DNA from: Alloiococcus otitis ATCC 51267
GTDB taxonomy: Bacteria > Bacillota > Bacilli > Lactobacillales > Carnobacteriaceae_A
NCBI RefSeq assembly: GCF_000315445.1
Contig: NZ_JH992959.1
Span: 122,035-186,034, forward strand
Direction: 5' to 3'
Length of the DNA: 64,000 nt
The translations under genes and the position numbers were made by a program. A model generated the notes under the pieces. It was not told where the DNA came from, searched no databases, and saw nothing but the letters and a program-made list of their open reading frames with translations. Positions 15,615 through 64,000 of the stretch are shown piece after piece. Positions within the stretch are counted from its first letter, which is position 1. Every line of letters begins with the position of its first letter.

Positions 15615-17781
15615 CTAACCCTTGTCTACCATGGTTAAGGAAATCCGGCCCTTGTCTAAATCGACACCATCAATCCATACCGTGACAATGTCCCCAACCG
15701 ATACCCGGTCTCTGGGGTGGTTGGTGTAGTCTTTACTCATTTTAGAAATATGAACGAGGCCATCTTCTTTGACCCCAATATCGACAAAGGCACCAAAATC
15801 AACCACATTACGGACGGTCCCTTCTAATTGCATCCCTTCCTTGAGGTCTTCCATCTTAAGGACGTCTTGGCGAAGCAAGGGGGCTGGCCGGTCGTCACGC
15901 ATGTCACGGCCAGGCTTAACCAAGCCCTGGATGATATCCTGGTAGCTTTCCCGTCCTAGTCCAGTTGCCTCAAGCAAGGCCTGGTCGTCAGCCTTCTTGA
16001 CTTGGTCAGCCAAATCTTGTGACCCAACCTGGTCCTTACTAAAACCTAATTCTGTCAAAATGATTTCTGCTTCCTGGTAGGATTCAGGGTGAATGCCGGT
16101 CTGGTCAAAAGGTTCAGCCCCATTCGGAATCCGTAAAAATCCGACTGCTTGCTGGTAGGTTTTGGGGCCTAGCCGTTTGACCGACTTAATTTGTTGACGC
16201 TCGGTATACTGGCCTTTGTCTTCCCGGTAGGCTACAATATTTTGGGCTGTGGCCTGGGTCAAGCCGGAAACGTGTTCCAAAAGACTAGCCGAGGCTGTAT
16301 TGAGGTTTACGCCAACTTGGTTGACAGCAGTCTCCACCACAAAATCCAATTGGTCAGTCAACTTGGCCTGAGATAGGTCGTGTTGGTACTGGCCTACCCC
16401 AATGGACTTCGGATCAATTTTAACCAGTTCAGCCAAGGGGTCTTGCAGGCGGCGGGCGATGGAAACGGCGCTTCTTTCCTCAACTTGGAGGTCGGGGAAT
16501 TCCCGTCTGGCCTCATCGCTGGCTGAGTAAACCGAAGCCCCCGCTTCACTAACAATGACGTAGGCTACAAATCGGTCAAGGTCTTGGACCACTTCACTGA
16601 CAAATTGTTCCGACTCCCGACTAGCTGTCCCATTCCCGATGGCAATCGTGTCAACTTGGTAGGTTTGAACCAAGTCGGTCAATTGGAACTTAGCTTCCTG
16701 GTATTTTTTTCTTGCTATTGTGGGGATAAATGACCTTAATGGCTAAGACCTTGCCTGTTTTATCCACCACGGCTAGCTTGCAACCAGTTCGAAAGGCAGG
16801 GTCTAAGCCCAAGACAACCTGGTCTTTAAGAGGTGGTTGCAAGAGCAAGTTCCTCAAATTGTCGCCAAAAACCTGGATGGCCTGGTCTTCTGCGGCTTGC
16901 GTCATATCGGACCGGAGTTCTCGTTCAATCGCTGGTTGAATGAAGCGTTTAAAGGCTGCATCAATAGCCTTCTTGACTAATTGGCTAGCCGGGTTATTAA
17001 CTTGGGCCGGAATTTCTTGCTTATAAACATAGTTTTGCACCCGGCTAGGGTCGCAGTCTAAACTTACTGATAGGACCCCAGCTTCCTCTCCCCGATTCAA
17101 GGCCAAAACCCGGTGGTGGGCAATGGTTCGGTAACTTTCTGAATAGTCGTAGTAATTCTGGTAAATACCCTTGGGGTCGTCATTTTCATCCTTGACCTTG
17201 GAGGTATAAAGGGCATTATAGCGCATAAAGTCCCGCAGACGCTTGCGGTATTCCGGCTTGTCGCCTACTGCTTCTGCAATAATCTCAAAAGCCCCGTCTA
17301 GTCCAGCTTGGCTGGAATCGACTCCCTTATCTGGGTCAATAAAATCCTGGGCCTTGGTCTCTATATCCTGGTCGGAGAAGGTCAAAAGCCAGTCTGCCAA
17401 GGCTTGTAAGCCGGCTTCTTTAGCCTGGCTAGCCTTGGTCCGACGTTTTTTCTTATAAGGGCGGTAGAGGTCTTCCACTTCCTGAAGCTGGTTTGCCTGC
17501 AGGATTGCCGCTTTTAAATCCTGGCTCAACTTGCCTTGGCTGGCAATAGACTCCATCACAGTTCCTTTCCGGTCTTGTAAGTTTTTTAAGTAATGGTAGC
17601 GGTCTTGAATGGTCCGGATTTGGACTTCATCTAAGGCCCCCGTTTGGTCTTTCCGGTAGCGGGCAATAAAAGGGACCGTATTCCCTTCTTCCAAGAGGTC
17701 CAATACACTGGTGACTTGCTTGGTCGTAAAATCACTCAGGTCTTTTAACAAGTTTGCTTTAATTGATTCTTCAATATTCAT
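15615..17781 (-). pseudogene. tex: Tex (YqgF-like/S1 domain RNA-binding protein), frame broken at an A7 run
   Basis: Two frames together encode a full Tex protein of about 720 residues. The upstream frame (17781-16690) holds the N-terminal helical part (TVPFIARYRKDQTGALDE, DLYRPYKKKRRTKA) and the start of the YqgF-like domain (GLDPAFRTGCKLAVVDKTGK). The downstream frame (from about 16710 to 15615) resumes with DTIAIGNGTASRESEQF, the helix-hairpin-helix (NTASASLLEHVSGL) and the C-terminal S1 domain (LEGTVRNVVDFGAFVDIGVKEDGLVHIS). The shift is at seven A on the minus strand (16704-16710); six A would restore one frame. This may be a real mutation, a homopolymer assembly error or a slippage site. 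Tex supports transcription and stress tolerance and is normally intact. Confidence 0.85.
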
Positions 17782-22298: not shown

Positions 22299-22467
22299 AA
22301 TGTCGCTCCTTTTACTATTTTCTTATTCAATTTATCATGTATGGGGTAAATGTCAATCCATTTAACCTAGACACCATGCCTCACAAGGTTAGGTCCTAGC
22401 TGAGGTTTTGCTTTATCATAAAAGTTCCGCTATACTACAAGCAAATAACTTAGAAAAGAGAGAAGCC

Positions 22468-23031
22468 ATGCTTGATGCAAAAGAATATTGGATTTTGTTC
22501 AAATCAACCTTTACCCTCAGTGCTTTTAGCTTCGGGGGAGGCTATAGTATTGTTCCCTTGATGCAAGAACAGTTTGTTGACAAACTTCACTGGATTGATG
22601 AAGATGAAATGCTGGACCTGGTTGCCCTGGGTCAATCCGCTCCTGGTCCCATTGCTGTCAATACTGCTATTTTGATCGGCTACCAAAAGGATGGGGTCTT
22701 AGGAGCCTTGCTTTCAACTTTGGGAACAGTCCTCCCACCTCTAATTATCATGACTTTGGTCTCCTATATCTATTTTTTTATCCGAGACAATGCCTTAATC
22801 AATAATATCCTGATGGGCATGGCCGGTGGGATTGCAGCCATTATCGTCAATGCTGTTTACAATATGGCCAAACAAATAGTCGTCCGGCGCAATCTTGTTC
22901 AAATTATTGTGATGGTCCTGGCCTTGGTGGCTGCCGTTATTTTCCAGATTAATATCATTTATATATTAATTCTAGCCGCAAGTGTAGGCCTAATCACCAG
23001 CCTGGTCAAGGGCAAAGGAGGTCAGGCATGA
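22468..23031 (+). CDS. Chromate transporter, first short-chain half (ChrA N-type)
   Basis: A 187-residue, about six-helix CHR-domain protein with the hallmark FSFGGGYSIVPLMQEQFV near residues 20-37 and APGPIAVNTAILIGYQ. I placed the start at 22468, where agagag precedes the ATG; an upstream in-frame ATG at 22408 lacks a ribosome site. Short-chain CHR proteins work as pairs, and the second half follows with a 4-base overlap. Members export chromate in some bacteria, but most have unknown physiological substrates. Confidence 0.88.
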   Translation: MLDAKEYWILFKSTFTLSAFSFGGGYSIVPLMQEQFVDKLHWIDEDEMLDLVALGQSAPGPIAVNTAILIGYQKDGVLGALLSTLGTVLPPLIIMTLVSYIYFFIRDNALINNILMGMAGGIAAIIVNAVYNMAKQIVVRRNLVQIIVMVLALVAAVIFQINIIYILILAASVGLITSLVKGKGGQA

Positions 23032-23591
23032 TCTACTGGCAACTTTTCATCACCTTTATGAAAATTGGGGCCTTGAGCTTCGGTGGCGGTTTAGCCGTCT
23101 TGCCTTTAATCGAAGAAGAACTGGTCCAAAACTTGTCCTGGCTCAGCCTGGAGGAATTTGTCGATGTCCTGACCTTGTCTGAAATGACCCCGGGACCCAT
23201 TGCCATTAATGCTGCAACTGCAGCTGGCAATAATGTGGCTGGGGTGACAGGGGGCATTGTAGCCACTATTGGGGTCGTCCTCCCCTCCCTCTTGATTGTT
23301 ATGGTGCTGGCTTATATCTACTTTAAATACCGCAATCTTTCCCTCTTCCAGGGAGCGATTGCAGGACTCCGGCCAGCGGTAGTAGCCTTGATTGCCTCTG
23401 CTGGTGTCACCATTTTCATGACCGCCCTCTTCAATACTTCTTCATTTGACGTGAACTTAGCCGACCTCAACCTCATTAACTTGGCTATCTTCTTTTTAGC
23501 CCTCTATGGCTTGCGAAAAATCAAACTGACCACCATCCAAACCATTATTTTGTCTGGCCTGGTCGGTGGTATCCTCTTCTCCATTTTGTAG
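23028..23591 (+). CDS. Chromate transporter, second short-chain half
   Basis: 187 residues, a second CHR domain: GALSFGGGLAVLPLIEEELV near the N-terminus and the conserved TPGPIAINAATAAG. It overlaps the first half by ATGA, so the two are translationally coupled and probably form an antiparallel heterodimer equivalent to one long ChrA. Ribosome site ggaggtc lies inside the upstream gene. Confidence 0.88.
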   Translation: MIYWQLFITFMKIGALSFGGGLAVLPLIEEELVQNLSWLSLEEFVDVLTLSEMTPGPIAINAATAAGNNVAGVTGGIVATIGVVLPSLLIVMVLAYIYFKYRNLSLFQGAIAGLRPAVVALIASAGVTIFMTALFNTSSFDVNLADLNLINLAIFFLALYGLRKIKLTTIQTIILSGLVGGILFSIL

Positions 23592-23748: not shown

Positions 23749-23789
23749 AAAAAGCCCTGAACCCAGCCTAACAGCCAGGTTCAGGGCTT
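23749..23789 (-). terminator. Intrinsic terminator of the first rnfCD unit
   Basis: Minus strand: aagccctgaacc/ggttcagggctt stem followed by six T. 23592-23748 holds no convincing gene. Confidence 0.85.
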
Positions 23790-23802
23790 CTACTATTTAG
23801 TT

Positions 23803-24870
23803 TTATTTATCTAAAGAATCTTTTTGACGGTCAAAGACCACATTCGGTCGTTGGTTGTGACCATAGATTTTTGGCATAAATGCTCGGTCAATAAAGGGTG
23901 CACAGATGTTCATAATAATAACAGAAATACCGACTGCACCTGGGAAACCGACTGCTATCCGGAGTATGACTGTCAAGGCACCGGCACAGAAGGCAAAGAT
24001 CGACTTCCCTTCTGGTGTTAAACAGCCTGAACTGTAGTCCGTTACCATGTATGTAGCAACAAAGAGGAAGGTACCAGACAAGACGTGGGTCAAGCTGAAG
24101 AATGGGTCAAAGTTACCCCAGAAGGTTGCCACTAAGAAGCCACCTAGGATAAAGAGGAGGGGGACTTTAGGGTTGATAACCCGTCTGACGATCAGGTAGA
24201 TCATCCCAATTAAGATAGCCAGCTTGGAAGTCTCACCAATGTTCCCACCAACGTCAATCCCTAAGAAGAGGTCCCACAAGTCGGGTATTTGGCTGGAAAT
24301 TTCAGTTGCCCCCCGGTTCAAGTATTCCAATGGGGTAGCAGTTGCCACCGCATCTACACCAAAGCCACCATATGGACCAGAGAAAAATCCATTGGGTAAA
24401 ATCCAGTTGGCAAAGGCTGGTTGGAATAAAATCTTGGCAACAACCCGGGCAGTCAGGGCTGGGTTTAAGTAGTTACGGCCCAAGCCACCAGGTCCAAAGC
24501 CAAAGTTCCAATGCTTGACAATTAAAACGGCTATCAAGGCCGCTACAGCAACGACCCACAAGGGGGAAGAAACTGGGAAGGACAAGCCCACCAAAAGACC
24601 GGTAACGAAAACACTGCGGTCATAAAGGGTGACCTTCTTGTCAGAAAATTTCTGGTAGCCGTACTCTGCCAAGGCAGCCACGGCAACCGCTACAGCGATT
24701 TGAACAAAGACCCACCAGCCAAAGAAGTAGGCTGCTGCGATAATGGGTGGGACAAGGGCAATCATTACGTCAGTCATAATGTCCCGGGACCGACGCTTAC
24801 GCCGGATGTGGGGGGAGGGAGAGGATTGGAGTTGCTTTTGAACTTCTTCAATACTAATTGACTGCGACAT
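23803..24870 (-). CDS. RnfD/NqrB-like electron-transport subunit, copy 1
   Basis: A 355-residue polytopic protein with about nine or ten helices. The segment GGLGRNYLNPALTARV and the motif DAVATATPLEYL match RnfD/NqrB, whose Thr (here about Thr179 in TATP) carries a covalent FMN. The start is ATG 24870, one base after the RnfC stop, with ggagga upstream. In the full Rnf complex this subunit works with RnfA, B, C, E and G to couple ferredoxin or NADH oxidation to ion transport. None of the others except RnfC is nearby. Confidence 0.88.
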   Translation of the reverse strand: MSQSISIEEVQKQLQSSPSPHIRRKRRSRDIMTDVMIALVPPIIAAAYFFGWWVFVQIAVAVAVAALAEYGYQKFSDKKVTLYDRSVFVTGLLVGLSFPVSSPLWVVAVAALIAVLIVKHWNFGFGPGGLGRNYLNPALTARVVAKILFQPAFANWILPNGFFSGPYGGFGVDAVATATPLEYLNRGATEISSQIPDLWDLFLGIDVGGNIGETSKLAILIGMIYLIVRRVINPKVPLLFILGGFLVATFWGNFDPFFSLTHVLSGTFLFVATYMVTDYSSGCLTPEGKSIFAFCAGALTVILRIAVGFPGAVGISVIIMNICAPFIDRAFMPKIYGHNQRPNVVFDRQKDSLDK

Positions 24871-24871
24871 G

Positions 24872-26206
24872 TTATTCCTCCTCTTCTTTTTTGGCATTAA
24901 TGGCAGCTTTTGCGCCACGGATATTGTCAAGGAGTGGGATGTTGGATGGGCAGATGAAGGAACAGTTACCACATTCGATACAGTCCATAGCTCCAAGTTT
25001 CTCAGCTTTATCAATCTCACCGCGTTCGAAGGCTTCCGAGATCAAAATTGGTTGCAGGCTGACTGGGCAAACGTTGAGACACTCAGCACACATAATACAG
25101 TCTTCCCGTTCTTCGACTTCAGCTTCTTCCTTGGTTAAGATGGTTAAAGCAGTCATCCCTTTGGGAACTGGAACGCCTAAGTCGGTGATAACTTTCCCCA
25201 TCATAGGACCACCAGATAAAATTTTACCCGGGTAGTCAATGAAGCCGCCACAGTCATCAATGATGGAGTCCATTGGGGTTCCAATTTTGACTTTTAAGTT
25301 TTTGGGTTCTTTAAGAGGGGCCCCAGCTACAGAAATAACCCGTTCAGTGAGGGGTTCACCTAACTCACAAGCCCGGTAAATCGCCCGACAAGTAGACACG
25401 TTGAGCAAGATAATATGTTTGTCTGCTGGCAATTCATCTGGTTTCACTTCCCGACCAGTGAGGTTTTGGATCAAGTTTTTCTCAGAACCTTGTGGGTACA
25501 TGTGGGGTAGGGTGCGGACAGTAACCTCATTCATGTGGCTGGTTTCATTTTTCAAGACTTCAATAGCGTCTTTTTTATTGTCTTCAATCCCAATATAAGT
25601 TTTGGTCAGTCCTGGATATAATCTAGAGATAATTTCTAGTCCCTTAACCACTTCCTGGGCATAGTCTAACATAACACGGTGGTCTGAAGTTGAGAAGGGT
25701 TCACATTCAGCCCCGTTGAGGATAATGGTATCAATGGTGGTTCCTTCTGGTGGGTCGAGCTTGACAGCTGTTGGGAAAGTTGCCCCACCCATCCCAACGA
25801 TACCAGCCTTCCGTACGGTATCTAAGATCTCATCATTGGACAATTGATGGGAACGACCGGGTTCGATAATGGGATCCGCCTGGGTATACTTGTAGTCATT
25901 TTTGATAATGATACTTTTAACAGTCCCACCACCATCAGAAGGTCGGTCTTCAATGCCAACGACCTCACCGGAGACACTAGAGTAAACGTGGGCTGAGACA
26001 AAGCCGCCTTCTTCTGCGATCATTTGCCCTGCTTTGACTTCATCGCCAACTTCTACAACTGGTTCTGCTGGAGCCCCAATGTGCATTGCGATGGGGTAAA
26101 CCATTAATTTAGGAACACTAGCATCAACAATTTCCTTGTGCTCCGTGTACTGTTTATTACCATCAGGGTGTGATCCCTTTTCTTTATGCATAAAAGAAAA
26201 CGCCAT
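24872..26206 (-). CDS. RnfC-like electron-transport subunit, copy 1
   Basis: A 444-residue peripheral subunit with an N-terminal barrel-sandwich domain (about 30-90), an NADH/FMN-binding core (GMGGATFPTAVKLDPP, LNGAECEPFSTSDHR), a SLBB domain and two ferredoxin-type clusters near the C-terminus, CIMCAECLNVCP (about 370-381) and CIECGNCSFICP (about 409-420). It is the likely entry site for NADH electrons. First gene of the copy-1 pair, separated from copy 2 by a terminator and its own promoter region. Only about 75 residues follow the first cluster, without the long Ala/Lys-rich tail of proteobacterial RnfC. Confidence 0.92.
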   Translation of the reverse strand: MAFSFMHKEKGSHPDGNKQYTEHKEIVDASVPKLMVYPIAMHIGAPAEPVVEVGDEVKAGQMIAEEGGFVSAHVYSSVSGEVVGIEDRPSDGGGTVKSIIIKNDYKYTQADPIIEPGRSHQLSNDEILDTVRKAGIVGMGGATFPTAVKLDPPEGTTIDTIILNGAECEPFSTSDHRVMLDYAQEVVKGLEIISRLYPGLTKTYIGIEDNKKDAIEVLKNETSHMNEVTVRTLPHMYPQGSEKNLIQNLTGREVKPDELPADKHIILLNVSTCRAIYRACELGEPLTERVISVAGAPLKEPKNLKVKIGTPMDSIIDDCGGFIDYPGKILSGGPMMGKVITDLGVPVPKGMTALTILTKEEAEVEEREDCIMCAECLNVCPVSLQPILISEAFERGEIDKAEKLGAMDCIECGNCSFICPSNIPLLDNIRGAKAAINAKKEEEE

Positions 26207-26302
26207 GATAATTCCTTCCTTCCGCTTGTTCTTCGCTTAACAATCGCACCTGTAGCTCGCTACAAGGCCAATATTATTTATGTAAATAATACCTTTAGCT
26301 AG

Positions 26303-26331
26303 AGTATACATTATTCTCATTCTTAATTAAA
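26303..26331 (-). promoter_or_regulatory. Putative promoter of the copy-1 rnfCD unit with a Fur-like box
   Basis: Minus strand: TTTAAT (26326-26331), 17 bp, TATACT (26303-26308). The spacer contains GAATGAGAATAAT, resembling Fur-box hexamers. The rest of 26207-26510 is AT-rich, with a short palindrome tgtagc-tc-gctaca (26251-26264) in the leader and no gene. Confidence 0.4.
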
Positions 26332-26510
26332 GGCTAAAGTTTAGCATTTTCACTTTTATTTTCAGCAAAAATGACTGGATTTTTTATCTGTTTATAATCA
26401 TTATAAATTAGCTTTTCTTATAAGTCCAAACCTAACAAGTAAACGTGCCATATTTTAGGAAAAACTAAATATGTAAGATCTTAAACAAGATAAAAACCTA
26501 CCAGAATATC

Positions 26511-26553
26511 AAAAAAAGGCAACTTGACCAGGATGTGGTCTTGTCAAGTTGCC
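26511..26553 (-). terminator. Intrinsic terminator of the second rnfCD unit
   Basis: Minus strand: ggcaacttgac/gtcaagttgcc perfect 11-bp stem followed by seven T. Confidence 0.88.
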
Positions 26554-26587
26554 TAATGCAGTGAGATTGTTCTCACTTAATAAAATT

Positions 26588-27694
26588 TTATCTTTCTGCT
26601 AATGGATCTACTTTTTTAAAGGGTTCTCGGTCATTGTAGCCCATACCCAAAAAGGGACGGTCGGTATGACCGTATACCTTGTTGAAGGCTAACCGGTCCA
26701 CATATGGAATGACGGCATTCATGGTTACTATGGCCAAGCCCACACCTTCTGGGGCAAAGCCCTGGGTCCTAAACAAGCCCACCAGAAGTCCAGCCCCAAT
26801 GGGAAAGACAATTTGACCAATTCGGGTCAGGCCAGCTGTTGGGTAATCGGTCACCATAAAGACCCCTGCAAAGACTAGGGACCCACTCAGTAAGTGGTAG
26901 GTCATAAATTCCAAGTCCATGACTCCATAAAAATACATAAAGAGTCCCACAGTCGCGATGAATAAAACAGGCTTATACCAAACAATGACCCGTCTTAGGA
27001 TCAGATAAACCATAGCAATCAAGATCACCAGGGTGGACGTTTCCCCCATGGCGCCGCCCCAACCACCAGTATTGCCAATAAAAAGGTCCCACAAAGGAGG
27101 TGCGCCGGAAAAGTCGCCCCCGCCACGGAAATTAAAGATCAGGGGAGTTACCGTGGTATAGGCATCTGGCCCTAAGTTAGGGACATAGGCTTGGAGGGAA
27201 GCCGTCGAAACCTGGTCCAAGGATAGGCCAAAGAAATCATTTAGCCAGCCGACAAATTGGAAGTTAAAAAACCAAGGGAATAGTAAGTGGATGACCCTGG
27301 CTGTCACTGCTGGATTAAAGCGGTTGGACCCCATCCCACCAGGGATCAGCTTGATTAAGATAGCCAAGAGGGCTACAAGGCCAGTAGTGGCGTAGAGGGT
27401 CCCATTGGGCATGGACAAGGCTACTAAGATCCCAGTGATAACTGCCGACAGGTCACGAATGGTCGACCGCTTGCGAACGGCCCGCTCATAGACCCACTCC
27501 ACTAAAACGGTCACTGCCACAGCAATAGCCACATGGATTAAAACAGTCGGTCCAAATAGGATAGCCCCTGCTAAAGTCGGTAGCATTAGGGCCAGGATAA
27601 CTTGCAGCATTTGCCACTGGCTATCCCAGCCTTCAAAGATATGAGGCGATTGATCCGTTACTAAGTCATAATCTGCTAGTCTAGTCTTAGCCAT
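26588..27694 (-). CDS. RnfD/NqrB-like electron-transport subunit, copy 2
   Basis: A 368-residue polytopic membrane protein homologous to the copy-1 RnfD: both share GRNYLNPALTARV-like (here GSNRFNPAVTARV) and a FMN-attachment-like motif, here DAYTTVTPLIF (Thr183). An insertion of about 20 residues precedes that motif (VGWLNDFFGLSLDQVSTASL). It starts 2 nt after the RnfC stop (TAA-aa-ATG). The two copies have diverged strongly, so the duplication is old or the cassettes were acquired separately. Confidence 0.88.
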   Translation of the reverse strand: MAKTRLADYDLVTDQSPHIFEGWDSQWQMLQVILALMLPTLAGAILFGPTVLIHVAIAVAVTVLVEWVYERAVRKRSTIRDLSAVITGILVALSMPNGTLYATTGLVALLAILIKLIPGGMGSNRFNPAVTARVIHLLFPWFFNFQFVGWLNDFFGLSLDQVSTASLQAYVPNLGPDAYTTVTPLIFNFRGGGDFSGAPPLWDLFIGNTGGWGGAMGETSTLVILIAMVYLILRRVIVWYKPVLFIATVGLFMYFYGVMDLEFMTYHLLSGSLVFAGVFMVTDYPTAGLTRIGQIVFPIGAGLLVGLFRTQGFAPEGVGLAIVTMNAVIPYVDRLAFNKVYGHTDRPFLGMGYNDREPFKKVDPLAER

Positions 27695-27696
27695 TT

Positions 27697-29025
27697 TTAT
27701 CCCTCTCTTTCCCGGATGGTCACTTTGGCCTTACGGATATTTTCTAAGAGAGGGATGTGGGATGGGCAGATATAAGAGCAGTTACCACATTCAATACAGT
27801 CCAAGGCCCCTAATTCCTGGGCTGCCTGGATATCCCCTCTTTCATATGCATTGCTGATTAAAATAGGTTGTAAACCGACTGGGCAAACATTCAGGCACTC
27901 AGCACACCGGATACAATCCATCCGGTTCCGCTGGTCGACTTCATCAGCCGCCAGGAAGGTTACATGGGTTGTCCCTTTGGAAATCGGAATGCCCCCGTCA
28001 TTAATAGCTTGACCCATCATCGGGCCACCTAAGATAACCTTGCGTGGGGCTTGGTCAAAACCGCCACACTGGTCGATCAAGTCATCCACCGGTGTCCCAA
28101 TCCGGACTAGTAGGTTTTTTGGTTCTTTAATGGGACTTCCGGTTACGGTAACCACCCTTTCAGTTAAGGGCTTGCCCAGCCGGACAGCCTGGTAGATGGC
28201 CACCAGGGTCCCAACATTTGAGACCAGGCAACCCACATCTTTAGGTAGGCCACCTGATGGGACTTGAAGTCCCTTGCAGACTTCAATCAATTTCCGTTCA
28301 GCCCCTTGGGGATACTGGGTTGGCAGTAGTTTCACCTGACATTTACTATAGCCAGTCTGGGCTATTTGCTTTTCTAAGACTTGGCTAGCTTGAGCCATAT
28401 CCTTCTCCAAGGCAATAGTGATGGTTTTGACTTCAAAAACCTGGTCAAGCAAGCGGATCCCTTCCAGGATTTGCTCGCTCTTTTCGAGGATAGTCCGGTA
28501 GTCAGATGTAGCATAGGGCTCACACTCGGCCCCATTGACAATCAAGTGGTTGATTTTTTCGCCCTCGTCTTGGATCAATTTAACTGCCGTCGGAAACTCG
28601 GCACCCCCCATTCCGGCGATACCAGCCTGGCGGATTAAGTCTATAATTGTTTCTGGGTCAAGGTCCTCCCCAAAACCAGTTAGGGCTGGGGCCTGGTCAT
28701 CTTGATAATCATTTTTGACAATGACACATTCTAACTGGCGGCCGTTGAGCATACGGTTTTCGACCGAAACAACTTGACCGGAGACCGATGAAAGAATGTT
28801 GGCTGACACATGACCCTGGGCTTGGCCCAAAAGACTGCCAATCTTAACCGAATCACCGACCTTAACAACTGGCTTAGCTGCTTGGCCAATATGCATGGTC
28901 ATTGGAAAGACTAAAATCCCTGGTGCCTGGGCCTTTGTGATAGCCTGGTCTATGCTTCTATCCCTGTTGCCTTCTAAAAAGGTCCCCCCATGATAACCCT
29001 TTAAAACAAATCGACTCTCAGCCAT
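27697..29025 (-). CDS. RnfC-like electron-transport subunit, copy 2
   Basis: About 442 residues with the same order as copy 1: barrel-sandwich domain, GMGGAEFPTAVKL, VNGAECEPYATSDYR, SLBB region, and paired clusters CIRCAECLNVCP and CIECGNCSYICP. I chose the ATG at 29025 because aaaggagg lies 8 nt upstream; an upstream in-frame start at 29058 overlaps promoter elements. It heads the copy-2 pair. Its promoter carries a cre-like and a Fur-like sequence. Confidence 0.92.
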   Translation of the reverse strand: MAESRFVLKGYHGGTFLEGNRDRSIDQAITKAQAPGILVFPMTMHIGQAAKPVVKVGDSVKIGSLLGQAQGHVSANILSSVSGQVVSVENRMLNGRQLECVIVKNDYQDDQAPALTGFGEDLDPETIIDLIRQAGIAGMGGAEFPTAVKLIQDEGEKINHLIVNGAECEPYATSDYRTILEKSEQILEGIRLLDQVFEVKTITIALEKDMAQASQVLEKQIAQTGYSKCQVKLLPTQYPQGAERKLIEVCKGLQVPSGGLPKDVGCLVSNVGTLVAIYQAVRLGKPLTERVVTVTGSPIKEPKNLLVRIGTPVDDLIDQCGGFDQAPRKVILGGPMMGQAINDGGIPISKGTTHVTFLAADEVDQRNRMDCIRCAECLNVCPVGLQPILISNAYERGDIQAAQELGALDCIECGNCSYICPSHIPLLENIRKAKVTIREREG

Positions 29026-56355: not shown

Positions 56356-57297
56356 TTATGGTCGTTCGTCGTGGAAGGTTCCCCACGCTTTGTTTCCTTT
56401 ACCACTTTCTCGGTAAGGCAAGTAGCGTACACCGTTCTCGGTGTGGTATCTGAGCCATTTGTATCCGTTGCCTTCATACACGGCGAAATAGTGGATGCTT
56501 TCGCCTTTAGGAAGGGTGCCGGTGTGCTTGGCGCTTGTAGAAGGTTTGTTTCTGACTTTAATCTTTTCGTTCGATTTGAAATACGCATTTTCTTCCTTCA
56601 CCAGCTTCGCGCCGGCTACTTCTTTAGGGAAGCCAGATGTTTTTTCTTGAGTGCCTTCCGTAATGAATGCATCGCCCAATTTTTCTTTGGCTTTTTTCAA
56701 TTCTTTTTCAGCATTTTTCTTATCTCTAAAAGCACCAGTTTGAACTCGGTAAACTTTTTCTTCAGTCGACTCGTCTTCTTCCACAGTGGTGGATCCACTT
56801 GACTTGCCTGCTAAACGATTTTTAAAGTCCTGCCAAGTAATTCCTTTGTTACCATTTCGCAAGAAACGTGGGCAATCTTTTCCAGACCAATGATTGTGTT
56901 GAACTACTTTGTCATTTGGAATATTATGCCGCTTTTGGAGTTCTTGGACTAATTCCACCAAATTTTGAATGGTTTTCTCAAAATTTCCATCTGCGTTCAC
57001 GCAAGTTTCCACACCAATACTGTGGAGGTTTCCTGTTCCATTGCCGCCGTCTCCAGCATGCATGCCAGAAGTTGTATCCAGCAAGGATTGAACGGCTTCT
57101 TTGTCATCTACTTGGTAATGCCAAGAGGCGCTACGGTTGTTCCCGTTCCGTTGCAATTTAGCATGCATCGCAGCGTTAGCCCCGTTGCTGGTGTTCGCTG
57201 TTTCATGAATCGTAATGTATTCGCAACGGTTATTGGTGCCTAAAATGACTTTGTTCGCAATTTTATTTGGAATAAGGTCCTGTCTAATGGTTACCAT
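56356..57297 (-). CDS. Phage endolysin: N-acetylmuramoyl-L-alanine amidase
   Basis: 313 residues. Amidase_2 domain (about 20-155) with metal ligands in TIHETANTS, SWHYQVDD and GKDCPRFL; a SPOR-like repeat (about 180-230, YRVQTGAFRDKKNAEKELKK); and a C-terminal SH3-type wall-binding domain (about 245-310, KIKVRNKPSTSAKHTGTLPK). It cleaves the bond between muramic acid and the stem peptide at lysis. Start overlaps the holin stop by 7 bases, forming the lysis cassette. Confidence 0.93.
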   Translation of the reverse strand: MVTIRQDLIPNKIANKVILGTNNRCEYITIHETANTSNGANAAMHAKLQRNGNNRSASWHYQVDDKEAVQSLLDTTSGMHAGDGGNGTGNLHSIGVETCVNADGNFEKTIQNLVELVQELQKRHNIPNDKVVQHNHWSGKDCPRFLRNGNKGITWQDFKNRLAGKSSGSTTVEEDESTEEKVYRVQTGAFRDKKNAEKELKKAKEKLGDAFITEGTQEKTSGFPKEVAGAKLVKEENAYFKSNEKIKVRNKPSTSAKHTGTLPKGESIHYFAVYEGNGYKWLRYHTENGVRYLPYRESGKGNKAWGTFHDERP

Positions 57298-57524
57298 TCA
57301 ACATCTTCCTTTCGCTCTTCTTGCTTATCTTTGTCGTATCGATACTCGCCAGTCTTGAAGATGGTGCCTAAGAAAGTTTGAAAGGCTGCAAGAATTGTTA
57401 ATATGGTTCCTCCATAGGCAATACCAACAGCTTCAAATACAACGCCTAAAAACGTAATAAAAGCTGGTAGCACGATCGCTATCAGCCACTTCAGGATTTT
57501 ATAGGTTCGGTCACTTAATCGCAC
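57291..57524 (-). CDS. Phage holin (phi LC3 / LL-H type)
   Basis: 77 residues from a GTG start with aaaggaggt 6 nt upstream; an earlier TTG in frame overlaps that ribosome site. Two hydrophobic segments (WLIAIVLPAFITFLGVVFEAV and TILTILAAFQTFLGTIF, first split here for length) and a charged tail (YRYDKDKQEERKEDVEW). Forms membrane lesions that let the endolysin reach the wall. Confidence 0.85.
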   Translation of the reverse strand: MRLSDRTYKILKWLIAIVLPAFITFLGVVFEAVGIAYGGTILTILAAFQTFLGTIFKTGEYRYDKDKQEERKEDVEW

Positions 57525-57538
57525 CGTTTCACCTCCTT

Positions 57539-57835
57539 TCAATTTTCCAATTTGTTTTTGTTTTTTTCGATTCGTTCACCATGCCGAATAATATTGTCTT
57601 CATTCCGGCCAATGCGAACTTCATGATTGTCAATGATTTTTTTCATGTTTTCCGTTTCTTTTCGACTTTCTTGCATATCTCTCGCTAAACCATCAATACT
57701 CTTCTTTAACGTCCACATGGTTTCATCATTTCGTCGCATTGTTGTACGGAAGGGTTCGACAACTAATTTTGCGAGTGACACAATCGCAATAACTGCGCCA
57801 GCAATGGTGCCGATGCTCACGATATCGATTTCCAA
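57539..57835 (-). CDS. Phage membrane-anchored coiled-coil protein (holin-associated)
   Basis: 98 residues from a TTG start with ggaggga upstream. One N-terminal helix (IGTIAGAVIAIVSLAKLVV) and a long charged coiled coil (RRNDETMWTLKKSIDGLARD onward). It lies directly before the holin. Similar small proteins are common in siphophage lysis regions and may act as auxiliary holins; not proven. Confidence 0.8.
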   Translation of the reverse strand: MEIDIVSIGTIAGAVIAIVSLAKLVVEPFRTTMRRNDETMWTLKKSIDGLARDMQESRKETENMKKIIDNHEVRIGRNEDNIIRHGERIEKNKNKLEN

Positions 57836-57856
57836 ATGTCTCCCTCCAGAAATGAA

Positions 57857-58264
57857 TTAGTCATCTTCTTCAGTCTTGTCTTGGCGGTCAGGTTCTTTTG
57901 AAGGGGTGTCATCTTTACCAAATTCCACACCGTGGAAAATTTCGCCTCTAGGTTGAGAGTAAGTTTTATAATTTGTGTTTACTTTATTATTGCTTTTTGC
58001 ATCTTTTGATTTTCCGGCTTGAATTCGATCGATCAGTTTACTTTCATTTTCGCCTTGACGTTGGACAAATTCCACATAAGCTTCGTGAATTTCTTCGTGG
58101 TATTTTTGATAATCTTCTTCGGTTACATCAGGCGTTAGCCAAGCGTTATAAGTCGGTAAGTTAGTTCCATTAACGCTAGCTGAAAAGCGGGCTATCTGAC
58201 GTCCGTCAATATATAATTGGGCTTCTTGACTGTGGTTTGGATTTGCATATTGTAAATTACTCAT
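57857..58264 (-). CDS. Phage hypothetical protein
   Basis: 135 residues, hydrophilic, no membrane segment; opens MSNLQYANPNHSQEAQLYID and has a charged C-terminus (DRQDKTEEDD). Located between the tail-fibre genes and the lysis cassette, with 8-bp overlap to the upstream gene. Probably a small tail or baseplate accessory; I do not recognise it. Confidence 0.72.
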   Translation of the reverse strand: MSNLQYANPNHSQEAQLYIDGRQIARFSASVNGTNLPTYNAWLTPDVTEEDYQKYHEEIHEAYVEFVQRQGENESKLIDRIQAGKSKDAKSNNKVNTNYKTYSQPRGEIFHGVEFGKDDTPSKEPDRQDKTEEDD

Positions 58265-58598
58265 TGAGAGTTTCCTCCTTCACTAGTGGTAAAATTCCTT
58301 CGATGACATAGCCTTCAATGTCGGGTAAGTCATCCAGGACTAATTGTTTTTTAAAGCTATAGTCTACCTTTTCGTCCAATATTTTACTTTCTTCCTGGCT
58401 GATCAATTGTTTTTGAGTTTGCTGCGGTTGGTCATCGATTTCATTAGCATATTTCTGAAGGGATTCAACCGCGCTTTGTACATACGGTTCTAAGTCTTTC
58501 TTTGCTCGAATAATTTTGAACGATACTTGTGGGTTCAGCTTTTTCTCTAGCAATTTATTCAAGCAATTATTAACATCAACTATTTTTCTTAATTCCAC
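58257..58598 (-). CDS. Phage hypothetical protein
   Basis: 113 residues, soluble and helical (LRKIVDVNNCLNKLLEKKLN; SLQKYANEIDDQPQQTQKQL). It resembles small proteins of the tail-fibre region of siphophages in size and place only. Overlaps the next gene by 8 bp. Confidence 0.7.
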   Translation of the reverse strand: MELRKIVDVNNCLNKLLEKKLNPQVSFKIIRAKKDLEPYVQSAVESLQKYANEIDDQPQQTQKQLISQEESKILDEKVDYSFKKQLVLDDLPDIEGYVIEGILPLVKEETLNE

Positions 58599-58610
58599 TT
58601 TTAACCATCC

Positions 58611-60506
58611 TTAATTGAAGCCTGGAGTCACTCTATTAAATGATCCTTGTGTATTTCGAACAAAGACATAGCCATTATCAGCAAAGAATATACCTGCTTG
58701 GTTAGCGTTATTAAGCCATAAAAATAAACCTTTATATCCGCTTACATCCCCTTCAACGAGTTCCAATCCTCTTTGTCCGTCTATAGAAGATCTAGTGCGC
58801 CATGTTTTGAATAACAAGGTGTCCCCTAAGATCTCAACTTCTCCTTGATCAGTGAGCATAAGCCCGTCATTGTTGTTAGATAAACTATTTTTAATAGTGG
58901 GTCCTCTTCTACCATCAGACAAAGTATGAGTAAATTTAAATCCCATTTCATCGCCAGAATTGGGATACAAATTATCCATTATAATACGACCTGTTTGACC
59001 ATCTACCCCTAGCGCTCGGTAGAATTGGTCGCTTCCTTGTGGACTAAAAGCTAAACTAACATAAGCTGTATGTTCAGCTGCCAAAGAAACGGAATATTTC
59101 CCTTGAAAAATACCGTTATTATCGATTGATTGTAAAGTACTCATTTGGCCGTGATCGTTACCATCACGCCAAAACTCAATACCTCTTTCAGACAAAAGGT
59201 TAGACCGTGATCCGTCGTTACGGTAAATGTGAAGACCTTGCCCATTTAAGTCAATGTTCCGGTTCAAGCCTTGAATACCGAGTTGAACGAACCGTCCCTT
59301 GTCACCGGTCAAGCTATTGACATCAAGGTTGATAATTCTAACTTGATTGGCGTTAATTTCACCAGACGTCAATTTATTAGCGCTAATATTGTTGGCCAGC
59401 ATTTCATTTGTGATGATGCCACCCTCAATAACCGTTTGAGCTGACACGTGGAGGTTTTCGCCGCTAATTCGAACGCCACTTGGGGAGAGGTTAATTTCTG
59501 ATACAATGTCTTCCCCGTTCATCTTGCTGTTTTGCGCCGCATTTTCCACGCGATCGCCGACTGCGAGCCAAATGCTATCGCCTGAACTGCGGATGATAGA
59601 GTCCATTTCACCCCGACTAACTTTCGATTGAATTTGGCCAGCGAGGTTTCGGATTTCAGTTTTAAGGGTTCCGTTCGCGTTGTGGACATCGTAACTTAAG
59701 CCGTTAACGGTTTGGGTTAAGCGGGACACATCGCCGTTGACGTTGCTAATCCGACTATCCAAAGCATCGACGGTTTGCGTGATTTGCGATTGATTGCCTT
59801 CCACGTCTGAAATGCGGGAGTGAGCCGAGTCAGCGCGCTGTTCTATACTATTAATATCGCCTTGCGCGCTAGTGATTTGAGCGCCGTGGCTATCCAATGT
59901 TTGCCAAATGAGTGAGTTAGCCCCGGTGGCACTCTCCACGGTGGAAGCAATAAGCCCCTCTAGCTGAGTTTGTTGGCTTCTCAACTGCCCTTCGACTGTT
60001 GACTGAAGACCGTTGACCAGTTGGACGGTTTGACTAAAGTTTTCTTCGTCGGTGTCTTCGATGAGGGTGATTAAGCTATCAGATGTCTGTTGCATAGCCG
60101 AACGCAAGTTCTGTTCTGTATCTTCCAATTGGTTTTGCCAAATATCGGCCGTGGCAATCAGTCGACTAGTCAAACCTTTTTGCGTGTCCTCAATCTGTTG
60201 CTCTAAGCCAGATTGATTGATTTTAATTTGTGTTTGTAAGCCATTCTCGGTATCGTCAATTTTTAAATTCAAATCTCGCAAGTCTTTAAAGATACCGGAA
60301 ATATCATTTTCAAACACTTTCGGCTCTGTGTAGGGGGTGGCTCTAAGGCCTTCTTCTAGCTGGATGTCATCCACGTGAAGGGCGCCAATGCAGTCACTGG
60401 GGATGATGACCCGATTCGTCTCTTCCGTGGCTCGAAAAGTCGCTTGGAGTCGTCCATCTGGCCCTTCTCGAACAGGAACAGATTGGTTACCAACGATAAC
60501 CTCCAC
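58611..60506 (-). CDS. Phage tail/minor structural protein (gp58-like)
   Basis: 631 residues from a GTG start (aaaggagg 8 nt upstream). The N-terminal part is an incomplete carbohydrate-binding-like end (VDDIQLEEGLRATPYTEP). Then comes a long heptad-rich stalk of repeats (SQITQTVDALDSRISNV, SRLTQTVNGL) from about 70 to 300, the INANQVRIINLDVNSLTG segment typical of gp58-like tail proteins, and a beta-rich C-terminal tip. Likely a trimeric host-contact fibre. Confidence 0.82.
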   Translation of the reverse strand: MEVIVGNQSVPVREGPDGRLQATFRATEETNRVIIPSDCIGALHVDDIQLEEGLRATPYTEPKVFENDISGIFKDLRDLNLKIDDTENGLQTQIKINQSGLEQQIEDTQKGLTSRLIATADIWQNQLEDTEQNLRSAMQQTSDSLITLIEDTDEENFSQTVQLVNGLQSTVEGQLRSQQTQLEGLIASTVESATGANSLIWQTLDSHGAQITSAQGDINSIEQRADSAHSRISDVEGNQSQITQTVDALDSRISNVNGDVSRLTQTVNGLSYDVHNANGTLKTEIRNLAGQIQSKVSRGEMDSIIRSSGDSIWLAVGDRVENAAQNSKMNGEDIVSEINLSPSGVRISGENLHVSAQTVIEGGIITNEMLANNISANKLTSGEINANQVRIINLDVNSLTGDKGRFVQLGIQGLNRNIDLNGQGLHIYRNDGSRSNLLSERGIEFWRDGNDHGQMSTLQSIDNNGIFQGKYSVSLAAEHTAYVSLAFSPQGSDQFYRALGVDGQTGRIIMDNLYPNSGDEMGFKFTHTLSDGRRGPTIKNSLSNNNDGLMLTDQGEVEILGDTLLFKTWRTRSSIDGQRGLELVEGDVSGYKGLFLWLNNANQAGIFFADNGYVFVRNTQGSFNRVTPGFN

Positions 60507-60521
60507 CTTGTGGCCTCCTTT

Positions 60522-62258
60522 CTAATCTTTGAGGTAGATGATAACTTCATCACCTATATTGGTTTGCTGTAGCCCTAGAGTTCCAATCTGTTGCTTAAAT
60601 GCGATGTCCCGTCCATCGTTTCTAATTTCTTCAATTTCACTACCGTCAATAAATACGCCATTGATTTCAATTGAGGCAATCTGATCTTTAGGCTCTTTAA
60701 CTGGGTCATTTAAATAGATTACTTTGCCTAACGGGAGCGTTTCAGATCGGATCGTTGTAGTATAGTCAGCCGTATGGGGTTCAGTTGGTGCAGGTTCTGG
60801 CGGAGGTGTTTGGCCTGAGTTACTTTCTAAAGCTTTAATTTTTTGTTCTAATTCAGCAATTTTGTTTTGTAAACCCGAAATGTCAGCAATACTGTGCGTG
60901 TGGTCTTTAAGAGCAACTAAACTCCCATCTGGATTGCCAAACCATGATCCTGCTCTGTGATAGAGAACCGCACCGCCGCTATCAACTTTGACACTGTCGA
61001 CTTTGTCCGCTATTTCAACTGTCAAACCATTCACATCGCTAATGTCATGTGTGTGGTCTTTCAAAGCAACCTTGTTTTCATGGTTCCAAAAGTTCCAATC
61101 ATCATCGGGTTCATCGCTTCTCCGGTAAATGACTCGCCCATCGTCTGCAACACGAACGACGTTCACTTTTTTGTCTAATTCATTTTCTAAGCCAACCACA
61201 TCACTTAGGCTGTGGCTGTGTCCTTTATCAGATTTGCCGGCCAAGTCAGATTTTGTGGCGTAACTGGTTAAATCAATACCTAAATCGTCAATATCGTCCA
61301 CGTTAGCCTTATTGTCTAAGCTAGTTTGTAAGCCGGTGATATCTGAAATCGGGTGCGTGTGGTCTTTGAGCGCCACTTGTTCGCTCGAATCATCGGTTTG
61401 CCAGATGTAATCTTCTGAATTATAGTACTGAATTTCGCCATCATCATTGGCTCTTGCTTTGGTTGCTTTTGTATCCACTTTCGCTTCTAATCGTGCTAGG
61501 TCACTGGCGCTAGCCCCAATGTCAATGTTGGCCAAGTCGGACTTACTAGCTTTACTATCCAACTGGTTGGGCAACCCTATCACGTCATAAAGGCTGTGAT
61601 TGTGATCTTTATCAGCCTTGTCGTCAAGCTTACTATCCAGGCTAGCGAATCCTTCCACTAAAGCTGATTGTGTGGCAAAATCGTCCAAGTCTTCTTCTTT
61701 GACATATTCGGATAGGTCTATACCAGCATTGGAAATTTCAACTTTTTGTTCTTCGGTCAGGTCGTCATATTCAAAGGGTTCGCCTTTGGGGCCTCTTGGA
61801 CCACGCTCACCTTTCGGCCCGCGATCCCCTTCAGGCCCTTGGAGTTGAGCCAGTTGGGCTGGTGTAAAATCTTCATACGTAAACGGTTCGCCTTTAACAC
61901 GACCTAAATTCTGTTCAGTCTGGCCTTCTAGCTTCACGTGGAGGTCTTCGTCGTCAAGGCGGACCCATTGAATGGAGTCCCCTTGTTCACCCTTTTCGCC
62001 TTTGTCACCTTTCGGGCCTTTTAAGGCGGCTAGCTGTGCGGGTGTAAAGTCCTCATACTCAAACGGCTTGCCTTTCGGCCCTCGCTTCCCTTGATGGCTT
62101 TTCAGGTCTTTCCATTTCTTCTGACCATCGCCAACCTTGATAACTTGCGTGTCACTGGCAACGCCAATTTCGCCTTCCAGTAAGACAATATCACTCGCCA
62201 ACCATTCTTCTTCGGTTTTGGTGACTTGCTTGACACGTCCTTTTAGCGTTTCAACCAT
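60522..62258 (-). CDS. Phage tail fibre with collagen-like and repeated KDHTH segments
   Basis: 578 residues. After an N-terminal head (about 1-50) there are three Gly-x-y collagen-like blocks ([35 protein letters not shown]), each followed by [13 protein letters not shown]-type linkers. A series of repeats with D(H/K)xH(S/T)xSDVxGL (for example [25 protein letters not shown]) follows, then a coiled coil near 480-500 and a C-terminal domain. The His-containing repeats resemble metal-coordinating fibre shafts. Probable receptor-binding fibre. Confidence 0.85.
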
Positions 62259-62546
62259 CTAAATTTCCCCCTTCCATATAAGGTCTGGATCAGTTGAGAA
62301 TTGAAAGAGTCGGTCACTATTTGGATCATCTTCTAATATTTCTCGATAAGCTAAGCTGACATCCACGCGGTTAATTTCCTCTAAGGCTTTGACGGGTAAC
62401 CTTTCCGTTTGATACCAATCGCTCCTAATTTCGGTTTGGTAATAGTCTGGATAAACTTCTAGCTTATGCGGGGTCGTTGTCGTGGTGTCCGTCACTTCGG
62501 GAAATTCGTCTTGCGTTGGTATCATTTTAATGGTGACTTCTTTCAA
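62259..62546 (-). CDS. Phage hypothetical protein
   Basis: 95 residues, acidic, Tyr/Thr-rich (VYPDYYQTEIRSDWYQTERL). Stop and the next start are directly adjacent (TAG-ATG). Between the tail endopeptidase-like gene and the fibre gene; function not recognised. Confidence 0.7.
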   Translation of the reverse strand: MKEVTIKMIPTQDEFPEVTDTTTTTPHKLEVYPDYYQTEIRSDWYQTERLPVKALEEINRVDVSLAYREILEDDPNSDRLFQFSTDPDLIWKGEI

Positions 62547-62563
62547 GCTTCATCACGGCCTCC

Positions 62564-64000
62564 CTAATCTGGTGCGTTCAAGTTAAAGACAACAGTGTTT
62601 TTATCCATTGGCTCACAATAGGCGTCAAAACTAATGGTATACAGCTGACCGGCTTTAAAACCTGGGCCATTGTGATAAACCTCGATTGGATCGCCACGGA
62701 ACTCGATTCTGCCGCTGGTGTCGCCTTCCACGCGGTTTCGGCTGTATCGAGTAATACCATCGCTTCCAATCATGTCAAGCGCCAATTCTGCGCTGTCTGA
62801 CGTTTCCGCTAGTTCTTTTTCAATAATATTAATTTGGCGTTGATTGAAGCCAGCTTGGCGAATGGCCTTGTCTATTTTGTCGGTGTCAATGCCGCTTTCA
62901 GCAAGATCATCAATATCTTCCCGAATGCCTGCCAAGTAGTCTTCAAAATTGTCTAATTCTTCTTCATTCCGCTTTTGAAGTTGCGACCACTTGTATTCAA
63001 AGGCTTGAAGTTTTTGTTCTGCTTCTTTTAGCCCTTGGTTAATCGCGGCTTCATCAATCAGCAGTTCCCAAGCTTCTCCATTCCATATCAGCAGTTGAGT
63101 TTCCCCTGGTATAGAAGGGTGATCACGGTACCATAAGTCCCCGGTTCGCTTGCGTTCAGGCTCAACGTTGCCATAAGTAATGCTATTGAAGCCATCAGCT
63201 GATAGAAGGGTATAGGATAGATTAGCTTGACTTTCTTGAATGTCGGACACGTTTCGTTCGATGTTGCGAATATTGGCTTGTCGTTTTGTACTTGGAGTAT
63301 AAACTACGTCCCCCAACTCAACTTGAGTTTTATTATCGTTTAATTTATCTCGCACAACTTTCCGAACACGTGTTTGATAGTGAATATCTAAGTCATGGCG
63401 GTGGATGGTAACGGTGTCCCCAATACCAGTCGCGCCAATGTTCGCCACGGTGGCTTTAAAGAGAACTTTCGGACGGGATTGCACTTTTAGTTGCTCGTAA
63501 GTGAGTTCTAATAAGCGCTCAGGGTCTTCCTCGTCGTCAAAACCGACGATCCCAATACGGGGCGCTTTACTTCCTTCGATATACGGGATGCCAAATCGAT
63601 CGGTTGCGGTTGGGTCTTCTAAGTAAATTTGGCCTCTTGGTTTGTCTAGCGGGTCTCCGTTTGCGGTGGACCATTCGACACCGGCAAACGTTAGTTTACG
63701 GCCATAGCCAGCTTGCCCACCGTCATTATCTTCCCCGCTTGATGTCTGTTCACCTTTGCCGCGTCCAATCAAAGCGGTATAGATTTCATCGCGTTGGGTT
63801 TCTCGGACTACTGTTAAGGCGTTGGACCCGTACGAGTAGCGTTTTTGAGTTTTCTGCCCCATTTCTTGATAAGCCTCAACCCACTTGTCCGTGATGGATT
63901 GGCCGGATATTTCAACTTTAAACACAAACTCCACGCCGGTCAGATTTTGCACATGCTTTAAGGCTTCCTTAACACTGGTGTAGTAAAACTGTGTAGTAAC
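62564..64000 (-). CDS. Phage tail endopeptidase/tail-spike-like protein, partial
   Basis: The minus frame is open through the window edge, so the N-terminus lies beyond 64000. The visible part of about 478 residues has the prophage tail domain (GYGRKLTFAGVEWSTANGDP, GIPYIEGSKAPRIGI, the VANIGATGIGDTVTIHRHDL segment) and then a coiled-coil linker (YKWSQLQKRNEEELDNFEDY) and a C-terminal carbohydrate-binding-like beginning. In siphophages this protein forms the tail tip and helps wall penetration. Confidence 0.82.
   Translation of the reverse strand, partial: VTTQFYYTSVKEALKHVQNLTGVEFVFKVEISGQSITDKWVEAYQEMGQKTQKRYSYGSNALTVVRETQRDEIYTALIGRGKGEQTSSGEDNDGGQAGYGRKLTFAGVEWSTANGDPLDKPRGQIYLEDPTATDRFGIPYIEGSKAPRIGIVGFDDEEDPERLLELTYEQLKVQSRPKVLFKATVANIGATGIGDTVTIHRHDLDIHYQTRVRKVVRDKLNDNKTQVELGDVVYTPSTKRQANIRNIERNVSDIQESQANLSYTLLSADGFNSITYGNVEPERKRTGDLWYRDHPSIPGETQLLIWNGEAWELLIDEAAINQGLKEAEQKLQAFEYKWSQLQKRNEEELDNFEDYLAGIREDIDDLAESGIDTDKIDKAIRQAGFNQRQINIIEKELAETSDSAELALDMIGSDGITRYSRNRVEGDTSGRIEFRGDPIEVYHNGPGFKAGQLYTISFDAYCEPMDKNTVVFNLNAPD

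Follow-up and report, generated by a model that had tools for sequence, protein, structure and literature searches.

The two rnfC–rnfD pairs

The window analysed here is a 64,000-nucleotide stretch of the Alloiococcus otitis ATCC 51267 genome (contig NZ_JH992959.1, positions 122,035 to 186,034), and its subject is two tandem rnfC–rnfD gene pairs of the minus strand, transcribed in the order C2–D2 and then C1–D1. The first gene, rnfC2 (27697..29022), encodes a subunit for NADH, flavin mononucleotide (FMN) and two [4Fe-4S] clusters, of 441 aa from its ATG, with a possible alternative TTG start 36 bases further upstream. Two bases separate its stop codon from the ATG of rnfD2 (26588..27694), which encodes a membrane subunit of 368 aa with predicted riboflavin ligands N127 and D283 and a predicted FMN attachment site at T183 (motif DAYTTVTPL, ACT codon at 27146..27148 on the minus strand). 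The second pair is built alike, rnfC1 (24872..26206; same type of subunit, 444 aa) being followed after a single base by rnfD1 (23803..24870; membrane subunit, 355 aa), for which N136 and D278 are the predicted riboflavin ligands and T179 the predicted FMN site (motif DAVATATPL, ACC codon at 24334..24336, minus strand). The copies are well diverged from each other, at 47% identity over 437 columns for RnfC1 and RnfC2 and 39% over 337 columns for RnfD1 and RnfD2. On the same strand, a 19-pair hairpin with a T-run (23750..23791, z -7.27) lies 3' of rnfD1, and a hairpin with a T-run and a long loop (26511..26554, z -4.64) lies 3' of rnfD2; both are strong and resemble intrinsic terminators, in keeping with each pair being its own transcription unit, as the first-pass annotation had proposed.

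All four products appear intact. RnfC1 and RnfC2 match TIGR01945 with E 2e-148 and 1e-147, retain the glycine-rich region and two CxxCxxCxxxC motifs (eight cluster cysteines), and align over nearly their full length to RnfC of Clostridium tetanomorphum and of Acetobacterium woodii, both of solved structure. RnfD1 matches TIGR01946 with E 3e-74; RnfD2 scores 187 bits against the same model (E 5e-55), below its cut-off of 207, and is far above the Pfam cut-off for PF03116, which is the only domain found in either protein, with no fused PF00175 NAD-binding domain. Both align to solved RnfD. In A. woodii, T156 of RnfD carries the covalent FMN, and N123 and D249 are the riboflavin residues (passages of PMC11889175); counted along the alignments, N123, T156 and D249 correspond to N136, T179 and D278 in RnfD1 and to N127, T183 and D283 in RnfD2. 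The cofactor motifs noted at first sight, two 4Fe-4S motifs in RnfC and an FMN-bearing Thr in RnfD, are thus confirmed by alignment. They are also kept in every orthologue examined from loci with rnfC and rnfD only: the T, N and D of RnfD in 75/75 rows and the eight cysteines of RnfC in 77/77 rows, with the window copies counted twice in each, RnfC reading frames of up to 380 aa and RnfD frames of up to 280 aa excluded, and rows alike over 200 residues merged. Chance similarity and gene decay are ruled out by the family matches together with the kept cofactor residues. An insert in an extracellular loop, considered as a hallmark of RnfD from such loci, was dropped, as the spacing overlaps that of full Rnf.

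Gene content of the genome and of the order

The genome (1.81 Mb in 8 contigs, 97% complete) was searched for the remainder of Rnf. PF03116 gave two matches, RnfD1 and RnfD2. PF02508, the model for RnfA and RnfE, gave none, although a diverged RnfA-like family, discussed further on, escapes this model; the rnfB model gave none; and the one FMN_bind match at E <= 0.001 lies in a reductase, so that no RnfG was found. At the sensitivity of these searches the description of the pairs as lacking RnfA, B, E and G, made from the window, holds for the genome, and no complete rnf operon was found elsewhere. UbiA-family prenyltransferases likewise gave no match, in a search that was positive in 14/14 control genomes; because no such enzyme was found, it is unlikely that the cell makes its own menaquinone, and the DmkA-type synthesis of (demethyl)menaquinone that belongs to flavin-based extracellular electron transfer (EET) is missing to the same extent.

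Another element of flavin-based EET, an extracytoplasmic ApbE, is present: the genome has one ApbE match, its location read from a lipobox identified by eye, and adjacent to it is a divergent PF07456 gene. Proteins of PF07456 we take to be EetB-like. EetB is now thought to supply FAD for flavinylation outside the cell (excerpt of PMC9864754). The sole FMN_bind protein has 598 aa, FMN_bind and FAD_binding_2 domains and a lipoprotein signal (by eye). Its FAD part aligns as a whole to urocanate reductase with E 4e-169, against 1e-82 or worse for fumarate reductases, and, counted along the alignment, it has Tyr373 (His in fumarate reductases), Asp388, Phe391 and Arg411, the last three of which are named as residues of UrdA in the relevant passage of PMC7921117. 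It is therefore a predicted lipoprotein urocanate reductase and a candidate partner of RnfCD. It is not PplA, but the PplA-like protein of Trichococcus, at E 0.0094, would escape the 0.001 threshold used with PF04205, and the PplA model itself was not used here. The reductase gene (contig 2, 109781; locus L108, 8351-10147, also in L003) adjoins a surface-protein-like open reading frame (ORF) of 2489 aa with tandem repeats. Both rnfCD pairs also occur in the nearest relative in the tree (G092), together with a urocanate-reductase-type protein (E 4e-163) and two further FMN_bind proteins, one of 175 aa that is hydrophobic over a stretch near its N-terminus and one that also has a PAS domain. The latter (L190 5148-7643, PAS_10) is encoded near a Dps-looking ORF.

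RnfD occurs in 61 of 395 genomes of the order. Fifty-three of the 61 have rnfC–rnfD and no RnfA/E above the cut-off (hereafter CD-only genomes), and rnfC lies directly 5' of rnfD in all 53; two of them (G084 and G350) have PF02508 matches below the cut-off. Seven others have an operon with RnfA/E (G042, G089, G231, G271, G306, G318 and G354), five of which also have a separate C–D pair, and one (G338), whose RnfD frame is interrupted by stop codons, was excluded from the CD-only set; a further genome (G322) has a PF02508 match and no RnfD. Two pairs are present in 11/53 CD-only genomes, nine of the 11 belonging to one genus (code g4), where RnfC2 at one locus is identical to that of Alkalibacterium pelagium. 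The Alkalibacterium loci examined hold C–D pairs only, and share with the window the order C2–D2–C1–D1, a convergent pair of chromate-transporter genes and, next to it, a disulphide-reductase-type gene, with extra genes in between in Alkalibacterium.

RnfD coincides with the flavinylation machinery. ApbE is found in 61/61 genomes with RnfD against 292/334 others (Fisher P 0.001), including all 53 CD-only genomes (P 0.003), and FMN_bind proteins in 55/61 against 218/334 (P 6e-5), or 47/53 for the CD-only genomes (P 4e-4), none of these values being corrected for kinship. In Trichococcus patagoniensis, rnfC–rnfD lies in a same-strand cluster with genes for PF07456, Pyr_redox_2, polyprenyl synthase, PplA-like, ApbE and 1,4-dihydroxy-2-naphthoate (DHNA) prenyltransferase proteins, and by this gene content sits within a flavin EET locus; its PplA-like protein matches NF041941 with E 8e-60 over 176/302 positions, below the cut-off. 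By BLAST, a second locus (L098) has the same gene families. In Anoxynatronum an FMN_bind plus FAD_binding_2 reductase is encoded 2.3 kb beyond rnfCD on the same strand. In a single genome (G170; L100 6891-10796) a gene for an LPMO_10/CBM5_12 chitin-type lytic monooxygenase follows 130 bases 3' of rnfD on the same strand; rnfCD might possibly supply its electrons there, and the literature search returned no paper on such an arrangement.

A tree of RnfC (92 rows, with long branches flagged, among them window RnfC2) places 17 rows labelled full Rnf on one side of a branch (support 100/99); in the tree as in the motif counts this label includes four rows (L070, L071, L072 and L080) for which BLAST saw no RnfA/E within the stretch. 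The CD-only rows fall into two clades, each with support 100/99: clade I (59 rows) contains both window copies and also two Clostridiaceae genera whose genomes are outside the RnfA/E search, and clade II (16 rows) consists of a single family (code f3), probably Enterococcaceae. Within clade I, window RnfC2 clusters with RnfC2 of the nearest relative and of Alkalibacterium (11 rows, 100/100), and RnfC1 falls in a separate group (29 rows, 100/99). Duplication within the window lineage only is thereby ruled out, and, because the two copies group separately with those of other genera, the split predates these genera and RnfC1 and RnfC2 represent two old paralogous lineages. The first-pass annotation had taken the diverged second copy as a sign of two different partners; the old split and the different regulatory sites considered below fit that idea, the partners of both pairs being putative.

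Proposed route of the electrons

In Rnf the electron path runs from RnfG-FMN through RnfD-FMN, RnfD-riboflavin and the RnfC clusters to RnfC-FMN and NAD+ (part of PMC11889175). This path taken backwards from NADH would be a complete wire from the cytosol to the outer face, for which RnfC and RnfD would suffice. The reading we consider probable is that each rnfC–rnfD pair is the electron-output part of Rnf used alone and in reverse, carrying electrons from NADH to an extracytoplasmic acceptor. NADH would reduce the FMN of RnfC, whose two [4Fe-4S] clusters would pass electrons one at a time to RnfD-riboflavin at the cytoplasmic side, and from there electrons would pass to the covalent FMN of RnfD at the outer side. 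Because there is no RnfA/E to return the electron inward, it would exit outside, most likely to other proteins flavinylated by ApbE, or to free flavin, ferric iron or dyes; neither an RnfA/E pump nor a self-made quinone would take part. In A. otitis the urocanate-reductase-like lipoprotein is the one FMN_bind candidate found for the acceptor, with free flavins or metals equally possible. Gene content, the kept residues, the pair's persistence as a unit and the presence of ApbE in every RnfD genome are observed, as is the lack of the other subunits and of UbiA within the reach of the searches; the direction of electron flow, the flavinylation, the acceptor, the partners and the link of the reductase to RnfCD are what we infer. 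Of the options raised at first for a minimal RnfCD module working from NADH, the module itself is supported and a flavin or other external acceptor fits best, whereas a self-made quinone is unlikely.

Several observations weigh against this route. The co-occurrence of RnfD with ApbE and FMN_bind was computed without regard to kinship; six of the 61 RnfD genomes, all CD-only (G010, G069, G099, G165, G222 and G233), have no FMN_bind match, and although G233 holds a PplA-like protein, five are left without a recognised partner, which suggests that acceptors other than FMN_bind or PplA-like proteins exist. ApbE or a reductase of the A. otitis type was recognised near rnfCD in only 4/45 CD-only locus rows (12-21 kb; L059, L097, L098 and L063), L059 and L097 being one locus counted twice, with ApbE near rnfCD in G222 as an additional case; in A. 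otitis itself the reductase and ApbE genes are on another contig, away from rnfCD. A diverged RnfA/E could lie unnoticed elsewhere in the genome, because PF02508 misses the RnfA-like family of clade II. Finally, A. pelagium has eetA, eetB, ndh2-like and dmkA/B genes and no pplA, as far as the pertinent part of PMC10572741 goes, so that RnfCD is not the sole candidate for electron exit in that organism.

The proposed conduit resembles, and departs from, known systems. It shares with the Rnf complex (RnfABCDGE) both RnfC and RnfD, their cofactor residues and the gene order C–D; it differs in that no RnfA, E, G or B was found, and hence there would be no ferredoxin entry, [2Fe-2S] gate, RnfG shuttle or pump of the RnfA/E kind that has been put forward for A. 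woodii. NQR/RNF-like half systems (PMC8238504 and PMC11334425, in part) have likewise been proposed as a one-way route from NADH to the outside through an NqrB/RnfD membrane domain. As characterized there, however, this domain carries a fused NqrF-type NAD domain, no longer has the flavinylation Thr, is accompanied by an RnfG/NqrC-like subunit and occurs mostly in Actinobacteria and the candidate phyla radiation, whereas in the present loci RnfC is the donor module, the Thr is kept in all CD-only rows counted above and no RnfG/NqrC-like subunit is adjacent. A form consisting of RnfC and RnfD only, with the Thr kept, is not described among the literature matches listed; half-Rnf/Nqr one-way systems as such have already been proposed, and it is the RnfC-based, Thr-retaining form that appears to be new. 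With flavin-based EET (FLEET: PplA, EetA/EetB, FmnB/ApbE, Ndh2, DmkA/B) A. otitis has in common a lipobox ApbE, PF07456 beside apbE and NADH as the presumed source, and in Trichococcus rnfCD lies inside such a locus; the difference is that electrons in the known route travel by way of Ndh2/Ndh3 and demethylmenaquinone (excerpt of PMC9864754), and no UbiA was found here. In comparison with UrdA, the FMN_bind protein aligns over the whole FAD part and has the signature residues, but it is a predicted lipoprotein of a Gram-positive bacterium and its link to RnfCD is of our own proposing.

Regulatory sites and competing explanations

Among alternatives the one that survives best, although unlikely, is that RnfCD is a redox-stress device, a membrane NADH oxidase under PerR-type control whose outer flavin would serve to remove oxygen, peroxide or surplus NADH. 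It draws on a perfect 15-base palindrome of PerR/Fur type, TTATAATNATTATAA (26392..26406), about 185 bases upstream of rnfC1 and over a -10-like TATAAT; we take its consensus to be that of the Bacillus subtilis PerR box. This is the only exact occurrence in the genome. Four sites differ from it by one mismatch, and one of these precedes a ferritin-like gene, presumably Dps, by about 50 bases; the genome also has three regulators of the FUR family. Against it, the nearest relative has an 11/14 match at the corresponding position, and among orthologues (59 upstream regions of at least 200 bases scanned) PerR-type sites scoring at least 12 show a slight excess in CD-only loci (4/39 against 11/595, P 0.01), so that the box is poorly kept and weak as a conserved feature of rnfC1; a regulator site, moreover, tells when a gene is used and not what it does. 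The other paralogue has a site of its own in Alkalibacterium, where a Fur-type palindrome is found 204-226 bases upstream of rnfC2 in 9/9 loci, which are close kin, against 0/131 other genes of these loci (at least 12/14 in the better of two patterns), and in 9/10 of the C2 group against 6/595. A Fur-type box upstream of rnfC2 in the window was rejected, its best match being 11/14, as for a few other window genes; rnfC2 of the nearest relative is also without a good one.

Two further explanations are quite improbable. In the first, RnfCD would be an NADH:quinone reductase, as NqrA–NqrB would be if NqrA were redox-active. RnfD is homologous to NqrB, the reducer of ubiquinone, yet the two N-terminal helices of the NqrB quinone site are absent from RnfD (both from passages of PMC12174285). 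A quinone could be imported, and in Trichococcus the prenyltransferase gene stands beside rnfCD; the lack of UbiA-family matches in A. otitis speaks against a quinone of its own.

In the second, RnfCD would belong to a pumping complex, either with RnfA, E, G and B too diverged to be recognised or with RnfD itself moving ions. In its favour is a third gene found 3' of rnfD in 11/16 clade II rows (L014 879-1442 and ten relatives), which is not recognised by Pfam (one member scanned) or reported by the genome search with PF02508. Profile comparison of this family gave RnfA at 97%, RnfE at 1.4% and six other neighbour families at 0.4% or less. The protein, however, is a membrane protein that lacks both motifs in which RnfA usually has its cluster cysteines: the cysteines of FLG[IV]CPF and TTNCA[VI]L are present in 10/12 RnfA rows and in 0/11 members of the family. 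It was found in no locus of clade I, to which the window copies belong, and no RnfB was found in the genome. For RnfD itself, some models route Na+ through RnfD/NqrB (part of PMC12174285), whereas the passages of PMC11889175 concerned report nothing to indicate that sodium is translocated with the help of RnfD. The third gene may be a relic of a fuller ancestor from which the pump was lost, which is one of several conceivable histories.

The least credible alternative is inward flow, in which an extracellular reductant would feed RnfD and RnfC would make NADH as it does in classical Rnf (excerpt of PMC11889175), for no outside electron source is evident and the one FMN_bind protein of A. otitis is by its active site a reductase.

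Outward flow through RnfCD, the preferred reading, would offer a conduit of two genes with solved homologues and a marker, rnfCD without rnfA/E, by which the step of electron exit from Gram-positive cells becomes directly testable; for Enterococcus faecalis, it is stated that neither what EetA does nor how electrons get from menaquinol to ferric ion is known (PMC9864754, in part). It would also illustrate one way in which an ion pump can be split down to its electron-conducting part, and the RnfA relative of clade II, in which the usual cluster cysteines are missing, would be a possible relic of this. An annotation of rnfC (K03615) does not in itself indicate a sodium-pumping Rnf: K03615 correlates with indigo dyeing (0.93, the metagenome being a prediction from 16S data), with Alkalibacterium named as its main source (passages of PMC10572741), but the Alkalibacterium loci examined hold C–D pairs only. 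A wider and distinctly speculative extension, which we would not expect to hold in full, is that RnfCD is a quinone-free Gram-positive EET conduit that arose from Rnf when the pump was lost, is present as two differently regulated paralogues (PerR-type here, Fur-type in Alkalibacterium), powers urocanate reductase and other extracellular reductases, and contributes to indigo reduction by Alkalibacterium.

Genes neighbouring rnfCD were rejected as partners, those scanned, which are not every neighbour, being mostly unrelated (LGT, WhiA, RapZ, MgtC, phosphofructokinase, aldehyde dehydrogenase, TRAP transporter, peptidase and chromate transporter). The chromate-transporter gene pair beside rnfCD1 (22408-23591) has a similar counterpart near the urocanate reductase gene (L108 2596-3719), the second genes being alike at 169/187 residues. 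Farther away, two adjacent minus-strand ORFs at 15615-17781 appear to be one gene split into N- and C-terminal parts, which from the family we take to be the halves of a Tex-type RNA-binding protein, and the region from about 56356 to 63952 contains amidase-like, long collagen-like and tail-fibre-like ORFs that, by eye, are perhaps the end of a prophage.

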